From an uncultured Acidimicrobiaceae bacterium (GTDB taxonomy: Bacteria > Actinomycetota > Acidimicrobiia > Acidimicrobiales > SZUA-35), in NCBI GenBank assembly GCA_947259095.1, contig CAMYLA010000004.1:1-64000 (forward strand): 64,000 nucleotides of DNA, given 5' to 3'. Positions 18,725 to 57,032 of this stretch are shown one piece after another. Positions within the stretch are counted from its first letter, which is position 1. Each line of letters begins with the position of its first letter. The translations under genes and the position numbers were made by a program. The notes beneath the pieces were generated by a model. The model was not told where the DNA came from, searched no databases, and saw nothing but the letters and a program-made list of their open reading frames with translations.

Positions 18725-19264
18725 ATGTCACGCATCGGCAATGCCCCGATTCCCGTACCGTCGGGCGTGGAGATCAACATCTCCGGTTCCGACGTCACGG
18801 TCAAAGGGCCGAAGGGCACCCTCGAGCACTCGATTCCCGAGGTCATCTCGGTCGAGCTCGGCGAGGGTGAGGCTTCGGTCTCACGGGTCAACGAGGAGCG
18901 CAGCTCCAAGGCCCTGCACGGTCTGACCAGGTCGCTGCTGAACAACATGGTGATCGGTGTCAGCGAAGGGTTCCGCAAGGACCTGGAGATCATCGGCGTC
19001 GGTTACCGGGCGAACGCCAAAGGCAAGGACCAGCTCGAACTGGCCCTCGGGTTCAGCCACCCGGTCACGGTCAAGGCGCCGGACGGCATCGAATTCGACG
19101 TGCCGGAGCCGACCAAGATCGGCGTGATCGGCATCGACAAGCAGGTCGTCGGCCAGGTTGCGGCCGAGATCCGCGGCTACCGCAAACCCGAGCCGTACAA
19201 GGGCAAGGGTGTCCGATACGTCGGCGAGCGAGTGATTCGCAAGGCCGGGAAGGCCGGAAAATGA
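18725..19264 (+). CDS. rplF: 50S ribosomal protein L6
   Basis: 179 residues with duplicated L6 domains: [74 protein letters not shown] and the C-terminal signature [26 protein letters not shown]6 stabilises the base of the GTPase-associated centre. The last codons (KAGKAGK) belong to a repeat whose DNA is duplicated three times directly downstream. The TGA overlaps an ATG (ATGA), which starts the first of these repeats. Confidence 0.98.
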
Positions 19265-19338
19265 GCACAGCCGGGAAGGCCGGGAAATGAGCACAGCCGG
19301 AAAGGCCGGAAAATGAGCACAGTCGGAAAGGCTGGTAA
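19261..19338 (+). repeat. Three 26-bp tandem repeats encoding overlapping minicistrons between rplF and rplR
   Basis: Units lie at 19261-19286, 19287-19312 and 19313-19338. Each unit opens a 9-codon frame with its own stop: 19261-19290 and 19287-19316 both read MSTAGKAGK, and 19313-19342 reads MSTVGKAGK. Every stop overlaps the next start by four bases (ATGA), and the last TGA overlaps the rplR ATG (TGATG). The repeat length, 26, equals 30 minus the 4-base overlap, so reading frame is handed on exactly. The codons for AGKAGK equal the 3' end of rplF, so the array probably arose by duplication of that end. Each unit has a GGAAAGG-like ribosome-binding sequence. Third-unit differences (GTC, GCT, GGT, AAG) show it is not a recent perfect copy. 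Confidence 0.85.
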
Positions 19339-19341
19339 GTG

Positions 19342-19713
19342 ATGGCTACCAGAGCTGCCGGCCGCGCGGCCGCACGGTCACGCAGGCAACGCCGGGTCCG
19401 CAAGAAGGTCGTCGGCACATCGCAACGGCCCCGTTTGGCCGTGTTCCGGTCGAACAAGCACATCAGCGTCCAGCTGATCGACGATTCGAAGAGCCACACC
19501 TTGGCCGCGGCCTCGACCTACGAGAGCGCCGCCGGTTCCGGCGATGCCGGCACCGGGTCGGCGGCCGCAGCCTCGACCGTCGGTCGGTTGATCGGCGAGC
19601 GGGCGTCGGCCGCCGGCATCGACACCGTGGTGTTCGACCGCGGTGGCAACCGTTATCACGGCCGGGTGGCGGCGCTGGCCGATGCCGCCCGCGAAGCCGG
19701 ACTGAAGTTTTGA
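19342..19713 (+). CDS. rplR: 50S ribosomal protein L18
   Basis: 123 residues: [48 protein letters not shown] and [29 protein letters not shown]18 carries 5S rRNA into the 50S subunit. Residues ~66-80 ([19 protein letters not shown]) form a looser Gly/Ala loop than usual. The ATG at 19342 overlaps the TGA of the last minicistron; GTG 19339 one codon earlier is possible. Confidence 0.97.
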
Positions 19714-47715: not shown

Positions 47716-48518
47716 CGGCGGCCACCGGGGGGTTGACCCTGGCGGTGACCTCGTCAACCGGGGTGATGGCCCTGGCCATCGGCCGCCCCCAGGACCCCGG
47801 GTCTGCGGGGCGGTTGGCCGCGGTGGAGGTGGTGACCGATCGCCGTCATGCCGAGGAGATCGCACCCCGCCTCCAGGAATTGCTGGACCGGACCGGCGTG
47901 ACCCTGGCTGATCTGGACCGTCTGGTGGTGGACATCGGGCCGGGTCGCTTCACCGGGCTCCGGGTCGGGCTGGCCACGGTTCGGGCACTCGGCTTTGCAC
48001 TCGACATCCCGGTGATCGGCCTGACCAGCTTGGCCATCCTGGCCGCCGGGCCCCGACTCACGGCCGCCGGGCCCCGACTCACGGCCGCCGGGCCCCGGCT
48101 GACCGACGCCGGATACGTCATCGCCTCCACCGACGCCGCCGGATCCGGGGCCGTGACCGCGTCCATCGACGCCCGTCGAAACGAAGTGTTCCAGCAGACC
48201 TTCGTCGATGGTGTCCCTGTCGAGGGGCCCCGGGTCGGTCCCCCCGACGAGCTGGCTTCCCTGGCCCGGGGCGTGGTGATCGGCGACGGGGTCGACCGGT
48301 ACTTCGACCACTACAGCAACCAGGCCGCGACCACCGGCATCGAACCGATCCGGGGGGTGAACCCCGATGCAATGGTCATGATCGCCCTCAGCCGGGGTCT
48401 GCCGGGAACGTCCGGCGCAGAGGTCCAGCCCCTGTACCTTCGCGAACCCGACGCCAAACCGAACATCAAGATCCGGGCCGGCGCCGAGGCGTCTCGAACC
48501 ACCGCCGGGGCTCCGTGA
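47712..48518 (+). CDS. tsaB: tRNA t6A biosynthesis protein TsaB
   Basis: 268 residues: LTLAVTSSTGVMALAIG, HAEEIAPRLQELLDRTGVTLADLDRLVVDIGPGRFTGLRVGLATVRALGFALDIPVIGLTSLAILA, the ASKHA-type half-site shared with TsaD. It is the structural partner of TsaD. A 21-bp repeat in three copies (48041-48103) inserts GPRLTAAGPRLTAAGPRLT after the conserved SLAILA segment. ATG 47712 overlaps the tsaE stop; rimI starts four bases before its end. A longer open frame upstream is the shadow of tsaE. Confidence 0.93.
   Translation: MTAATGGLTLAVTSSTGVMALAIGRPQDPGSAGRLAAVEVVTDRRHAEEIAPRLQELLDRTGVTLADLDRLVVDIGPGRFTGLRVGLATVRALGFALDIPVIGLTSLAILAAGPRLTAAGPRLTAAGPRLTDAGYVIASTDAAGSGAVTASIDARRNEVFQQTFVDGVPVEGPRVGPPDELASLARGVVIGDGVDRYFDHYSNQAATTGIEPIRGVNPDAMVMIALSRGLPGTSGAEVQPLYLREPDAKPNIKIRAGAEASRTTAGAP
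48041..48103 (+). repeat. 21-bp tandem repeat, three copies, within tsaB
   Basis: Copies at 48041-48061, 48062-48082 and 48083-48103; the first two are identical and the third differs at a few positions. They encode AAGPRLT three times, in frame, in the loop after SLAILA. Confidence 0.85.
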
Positions 48519-56393: not shown

Positions 56394-57032
56394 ATGGAGG
56401 CACCGTTTCTGAACGAACCGCTCGATGTGCGCGGCCTTCCCTCGCTGCCGGTCGAGGCGTTCGAATCGCTCGACCCGAACTACCTCCGGGCCCGTCTCAT
56501 CGCCGACGCCATCTTCGCCGGCATCGTGATCGTGGGCGCCGGGGCGCTCACCCTGGTCGTTTCGTTGTGGTGGCTGCCGTTGTTGATCGGCGTCGGGCTG
56601 TTGTCGTTCACCGCCCTGACGGCATGGCTGCAGAAGATCGAGGTCGACCGCATCGGCTATCTGGTCCGCGACAAGGATTTCTCGTTCCGCAGCGGGGTGA
56701 TCAGCCGCAACATCACGACGGTGCCCTTCGCCAGGGTCCAGCACGTCAGCATCGACCGTGGTCCGCTGGCCCGGTCGTTCGGTCTGGCCACGTTGCAGTT
56801 GCGGACCGCGGGTGACGGCCTGACCGTGCCGGGGATGAGCCATGATGTCGCCCTGCGCCTGAAGGCACTGGTCACGGCAAGGGCCGCCGCCGTTGCGGCC
56901 GAGGAATACGACGAGCAGTACCGCGAGGAGCACGCCGAGCCGTACGTCGAGGAGTACAGCGAGCCGCACGCCGAGCCGCCCGCCGAGGATGTCGCCAGCC
57001 CGGAGGAGGGCCCGATTGTCGGGGGCCGCTGA
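56394..57032 (+). CDS. PH-domain (bPH2/YdbS-like) membrane protein
   Basis: 212 residues. An N-terminal soluble segment is followed by two membrane helices (~38-60 IFAGIVIVGAGALTLVVSLWWL and ~62-82) and a bacterial PH (bPH2, formerly DUF304) domain: IGYLVRDKDFSFRSGVISRNITTVPFARVQHVSIDRGPLARSFGLATLQLRTAG. The C-terminus is an acidic Glu/Tyr/Pro-rich tail. ATG 56394 has AAAGGA seven bases upstream. It overlaps the next gene, encoding the larger PH protein; such YdbS/YdbT pairs occur together in Bacillus and actinobacteria. Confidence 0.88.
   Translation: MEAPFLNEPLDVRGLPSLPVEAFESLDPNYLRARLIADAIFAGIVIVGAGALTLVVSLWWLPLLIGVGLLSFTALTAWLQKIEVDRIGYLVRDKDFSFRSGVISRNITTVPFARVQHVSIDRGPLARSFGLATLQLRTAGDGLTVPGMSHDVALRLKALVTARAAAVAAEEYDEQYREEHAEPYVEEYSEPHAEPPAEDVASPEEGPIVGGR

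Follow-up and report, generated by a model that had tools for sequence, protein, structure and literature searches.

The window, a stretch of 64,000 nucleotides (64 kb), carries the genes of ribosomal proteins L6 (rplF) and L18 (rplR) inside a large ribosomal-protein operon, and the two genes are joined by an array of three short open frames, referred to here as minicistrons (Table 1). The underlying repeat was reported by Tandem Repeats Finder with a period of 26, a match of 93%, 0% indels and a score of 150, the top score among the 26 tandem-repeat rows of the window. The array was located at a single place in its own genome (assembled in 229 contigs, 6.39 Mb, 7.1% contamination), the next best match in a genome search having E = 0.09. 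Two further repeats were noted in the window: a 21-bp repeat (3.4 copies, positions 48041-48112) that runs in frame as TAAGPRL inside an open stretch of 511 codons, and a degenerate 12/24/36-bp repeat (positions 56898-56989) whose translation, within a single open frame of 240 codons, is acidic and EEYDEQ/EEHAEP-like.

Table 1. Features of the rplF–rplR junction in the window.
Feature	Position	Strand	Basis
rplF (ribosomal protein L6, 179 aa, end RKAGKAGK)	18725..19264	+	ORF list; L6 homologues in 12/12 genus genomes
rplF stop TGA	19262-19264	+	sequence
26-bp tandem repeat, 3.4 copies, begins within the rplF tail	19244..19332	+	Tandem Repeats Finder
Final 18 nt of rplF (codons AGKAGK), source copied in each unit, SD-like AAGG inside	19244..19261	+	sequence; insert-to-rplF-end alignment
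Minicistron 1, MSTAGKAGK	19261..19290	+	sequence
Minicistron 2, MSTAGKAGK	19287..19316	+	sequence
Minicistron 3, MSTVGKAGK, probably the oldest unit, common to sister species G003	19313..19342	+	sequence comparison
rplR (ribosomal protein L18) from ATG 19342; alternative in-frame GTG 19339	19342..19713	+	ORF list

Each unit consists of the last 18 nt of rplF, a TGA overlapping an ATG and a 5-nt spacer. The initial annotation had described three tandem, overlapping nine-codon frames after rplF, and these were confirmed both in the sequence and by Tandem Repeats Finder. Its four-base stop/ATG overlaps were recovered for three links (rplF to minicistron 1, 1 to 2 and 2 to 3, each an ATGA) and had to be amended for the last; here the sequence is GTGATG, in which TGATG overlaps the rplR ATG by 1 nt and a 4-nt overlap (GTGA) is obtained only with a GTG start. 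In most relatives compared, the rplR N-terminus starts at the matching ATG. The unit length had also been read as an exact fit (26 = 30 − 4); this was abandoned because any stop-free unit of 3n+2 keeps the chain, which is about one length in three. The periods of three arrays were 26, 44 and 50, all 3n+2.

Copies of the rplF end were sought in other genomes irrespective of reading frame. Each insert between the two genes was aligned, with frame ignored, to the 3'-terminal 120 nt of the rplF that it follows, and the result was compared with 1000 shuffles. Junctions with at least 12 nt from the rplF stop to the rplR start were classed as spaced, and a junction was said to be in relay when every start lay −4 to +6 nt from the preceding stop. 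In the window's family 39 genomes were searched, of which 37 had L6, and all 37 junctions were read. The order sample comprised 57 loci outside the family (54 distinct and usable) of 376 genomes with L6, the phylum sample 29 newly fetched loci of 290 genomes with L6, and the Micromonosporaceae were covered by all 41 loci of a first Micromonospora-type genus sample plus 91 loci of 146 genomes with L6. After removal of four loci without usable L6/L18 and six identical ones from a total of 335, 325 distinct junctions were obtained; most of these are direct overlaps and 76 are spaced. One locus (L300, gap 16) was scored as non-relay, and its rplR start may be misassigned.

At p ≤ 0.01, copies of the rplF end were found in 13 junctions (six in the window's family, six in the Micromonosporaceae and one in a groundwater MAG). 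All 13 are in relay, compared with 21 of the 63 spaced junctions that have no such copy (Fisher 6e-6); a threshold of p ≤ 0.025 gives 14/14 against 20/62. Two weaker loci, L024 (p = 0.025 and 0.033 in two runs) and L119 (p = 0.005 and 0.022), stand outside the 13. The best match of L119 in the first run lay in rplF 70-82 nt before the stop and not in the tail, and the best tail match of L024 has an offset of 27, which is not 3n+2 and is read through, so that its relay is closed by the whole insert only. With the insert interiors shuffled, 5.65 relays were expected and 13 were observed in a set of 13 copy junctions that includes these two weaker loci. Tail-copy offsets per link equal 2 mod 3 throughout the 13 junctions, the values for L003 and L011 being the sum of two links, and the final link is a gap of +3 to +5 nt with no overlap in L004, L005 and L119. 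The cases are not independent; they would amount to five origins if each genus-level group is counted as one and to about seven otherwise, and our own estimate of the chance by frame alone for five to seven origins is roughly 0.004 to 0.0005. Copy number varying together with frame breaks, named in the initial annotation as the observation that would speak against it, was sought across species and not seen at the rplF–rplR junction. Spaced junctions without copies showed no excess of relays (12/52 against 14.7 expected, in a count that preceded the addition of the Micromonosporaceae family loci). The bias is therefore a property of the copies and not of spacers at large, and selection for minicistrons in spaced junctions generally was rejected on the same count. 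GTG-start minicistrons at L152, L156, L157, L168, L171 and L176 were treated as chance, being formed by AAGTGA ends and ATGA starts.

The nearest named loci by L6 are those of Actinomycetota MAGs, including Acidimicrobiales and Acidimicrobiia; the source organism is probably an uncultured representative of the Acidimicrobiia. All 12 genus genomes searched contain L6, and five of them have minicistrons at the junction: the window with three units, G003 with one (MMIVGKAGK), G004 with one (MARLHGPENDAGKAGK), G006 with one of 25 codons ending TAGKAGK and G002 with two identical MPGRPQFTAGKAGK units. The other seven have none; four of these junctions are direct TAATG/TGATG overlaps and three are spaced. 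Within the family as a whole, copies at p ≤ 0.01 occur in 6/37 junctions, namely the five genus cases and L117 (two units), and the weaker L119 (p 0.022) and L024 (p 0.033) bring the total to 8/37; all eight are in relay. Five spaced junctions of the same family have no relay, from which it follows that coupling is not indispensable in all members. A tree of L6 and L18 joins the window with G003 as its sister (support 99/37) and puts G004 next (96/76), a placement that is not strong; the presence of minicistrons requires at least five changes on this tree, three of which are forced by well-supported branches.

Of the 132 Micromonosporaceae loci, 119 have direct overlaps or a spacing below 12 nt and 13 are spaced further; 12 of these 13 are in relay, and five of the 12 relays (L211, L220, L234, L247 and L273) copy the local rplF end. 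Micromonospora rosaria (L046, DSM 803) is a sixth locus of the family with such a copy. Copies of this type also include 18-24 nt of rplF that lie about 25-50 nt ahead of the stop. In all loci but L211 this stretch precedes the tail, gives the best score and is read in a frame other than that of L6; in L211 the copy keeps the L6 frame. The copies match the tail of their own host, KAGKK in the Micromonosporaceae, AGKAGK in the window's family and AGKTAK in the groundwater Actinomycetota MAG (L035), whose L6 and minicistron both end in AGKTAK. The Micromonosporaceae cases show the origin of minicistrons by tandem duplication of the rplF 3' end.

Inserts of other kinds were also encountered between rplF and rplR. 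The spacers of two Micromonosporaceae loci (34 nt in L309 and 61 nt in L306) are in relay, contain no clear copy of rplF and bear little likeness to a dispersed repeat of the GTGAGCGCGAGGAGCGAGCTTGCGAGCCCCGCAGTCGCGA type. The latter forms a different insert at L240:1439-1498 (G766), with related inserts at L244, L248, L251 and L286; it is dispersed in G766 (56 matches) and was matched four times in G732, once in G823 and not at all in G235. Some of the matches are in tandem with GTGA ends, and the element looks like a repeat of the MIRU type (mycobacterial interspersed repetitive unit). An Acidimicrobiia-order relative (G235) carries a 185-nt insert (L153:421-605) with two frames of 29-30 codons and internal repeats, and the sequence of this insert is dispersed in G235 (40 scored matches of 136 candidates).

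Neighbouring junctions of the operon served as controls. Copies of the upstream gene end at p ≤ 0.01 were found at 0/129 spaced S8-L6 junctions, 0/6 L24-L5 junctions and 0/4 L14-L24 junctions. At L18-S5 they were found in four of 112 (about one expected by chance), one of the four being in relay; the same comparison gave 10/66 at L6-L18, all ten in relay, before the Micromonosporaceae family loci were included. The L5-S8 row (4/170, one in relay) was set aside, since its two genes are separated by a small ribosomal-protein gene and the junction is not a clean control. The concentration of copies at L6-L18 fits the slippage-prone GCN-GGN-AAG tail of rplF. One of the four L18-S5 cases is the rplR-rpsE junction of L012, where a 113-nt spacer contains a clear rplR-end copy (score 16.5) but is not in relay; a duplication of this sort can, it seems, occupy the next junction without a relay.

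These observations are probably best explained by tandem duplication of a module, formed by the rplF tail and its stop/start junction, that is kept only where the coupling of L18 to L6 is unbroken. Slippage or unequal recombination in the repetitive tail would generate the duplications. A ribosome that has completed L6 would terminate at the first ATGA and reinitiate on its ATG, read the nine codons of minicistron 1, go through the same cycle at the next two ATGA links and, at the end of minicistron 3, reinitiate on rplR; L18 would thereby remain coupled to L6. L18 would presumably become uncoupled by an insert of at least 26 nt that offers no relay; copies would persist only with an open chain of frames, because terminating ribosomes would otherwise be left at least 26 nt from the rplR start. 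In two E. coli pairs the upstream gene's final 15 nt were enough for termination-reinitiation, and a spacing of about 20 nt nearly abolished coupling in six pairs (PMC10666635); the unit, with 18 nt of tail and a stop/start, would accordingly make a complete module. Coupling over longer spacers in some studies, as cited in a review (PMC12548453), counts against this explanation. The junction has the overlaps of a termination-reinitiation pair (three links of −4 and one of −1, or −4 with GTG), and the retention of the relay lends indirect support to rplR translation being dependent on rplF. Two proposals of the initial annotation, the relay and a slippage product kept because coupling stays intact, are supported by the comparison: copy number differs among species (0 to 3 units) and the start halves vary freely, yet the relay is kept in all 13 clear copies.

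The history of the units bears on whether the peptide itself matters. The single unit of G003 has the same 26-nt offset and the same core (GTC GGA AAG GCT GGY AAG) as unit 3 of the window; between these two units 4/6 nt after the ATG differ and 1/18 nt of the tail. Since the GTC...GCT core is common to G003, unit 3 is probably the oldest in the simplest scheme, and units 1 and 2, which resemble the present-day rplF end, look like later copies. The change of V for A, which had been taken as a sign of constraint on the peptide, would be explained by this later copying without peptide selection, and the start halves diverge from G003 and are unrelated in other species. A basic nonapeptide mimicking the L6 C-terminus could account for the preservation of the tail half in the copies, but one synonymous change could hardly assign that conservation to peptide or to nucleotide signal, and neither the start halves nor the lengths (9 to 26 codons) show any relation across species, most of the relatives have no copy at all and unit 3 differs from its G003 counterpart mostly in the start half. 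The functional nonapeptide proposed earlier thus found no support among the species compared; such a role is very unlikely, and the peptides are probably by-products.

A repeat of no consequence, in which rplR has its own de novo initiation at the SD-like site of the final tail copy and the relay is incidental, would agree with the SD-like AAGG in every tail copy and with pairing energies at rplR that resemble those of rplF starts. In the window alone the minicistrons seemed to have weaker starts than some of the other ribosomal genes (19 positions, of which one, labelled L14, has no start codon), and in the window's family the pairing at rplR was alike whether a junction was in relay, direct or spaced (medians of −7.9, −7.8 and −8.2, respectively). 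SD strength was rejected as an explanation on these grounds, as the energies across loci fail to separate the three classes; their similarity would at the same time be compatible with de novo initiation at rplR. A neutral repeat, however, predicts about one third of the copies to be in frame, against the 13/13 in relay, and is considered unlikely. Loss of ribosomes at each stop/start could instead let the number of units set the L6:L18 ratio, changed by slippage and selected. The differing copy numbers in the genus (3, 1, 1, 1, 2 and 0 in 7/12 genomes) and the younger appearance of the first two units would suit such tuning, which we nevertheless regard as rather unlikely: copy number showed no trend with any other feature, and the ribosome needs L6 and L18 in equal amounts, which also counts against it. 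Fusion of the minicistrons to L6 by a −1 slip at GGAAAATGA was suggested by the four A in the rplF end of the window (GGA AAA TGA) and is highly improbable, since the rplF of relatives that share the architecture has AAG TGA or AAG TAA at its end and no run of A. The fragmentation and contamination of the source assembly would allow an artefact, a reading that is scarcely credible given that substitutions distinguish the units, that comparable structures are present in other, separate assemblies (that of Micromonospora rosaria DSM 803 among them) and that usual reads are longer than the 89 bp array.

It is a speculative step further, to which we give little likelihood, that in some Actinomycetota the rplF tail acts as a self-duplicating coupling module. 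On that view the last rplF codons would serve together as L6 C-terminus, SD-like site and stop/start junction, the slippage-grown number of minicistrons would be a heritable dial of L18 supply, and the array would be a natural case of successive reinitiations with little loss. According to PMC6728339, reinitiation efficiency at overlapping genes remains to be measured. Evolution seems to have tested this at two genes whose products are presumably required in equal amounts, and the sister-species junctions with 0, 1, 2 and 3 units would provide natural constructs for determining the loss per link. Should the in-frame-only pattern hold in larger sets, it could become a marker of obligate translational coupling that is readable from sequence.

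Minicistron arrays between rplF and rplR were not described in the literature searched, which did not extend to most subscription papers. The closest known kind would be the MIRU, and the array, a short repeat frame linked to its neighbours by stop/start overlaps, appears to work like one. The first described MIRUs reportedly occur as tandem arrays within the senX3-regX3 operon, and their unit lengths of 77 and 53 are likewise 3n+2. The frame inside a MIRU is linked to the adjacent gene through a −4 nt overlap, so that insertion hardly disturbs expression, and MIRUs are dispersed and appear mobile (PMC12548453). The array of the window, by contrast, occupies a single genomic place and derives from the gene that it follows. 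Being locally derived and not dispersed, it was not classed as a MIRU; on the speculative view of a self-duplicating tail it would be a locally born, non-mobile counterpart. Short upstream ORFs resemble the minicistrons in that a short frame whose product has no evident function may bring the ribosome to the next gene (PMC12548453), but the frames here lie between two coupled ribosomal-protein genes and are derived from the upstream one. Overlapping gene pairs share the same junction types (ATGA, TGATG) and the same proposed behaviour of the ribosome (PMC6728339, PMC10666635); the array differs in that the junction itself has been duplicated, which places several links in series.
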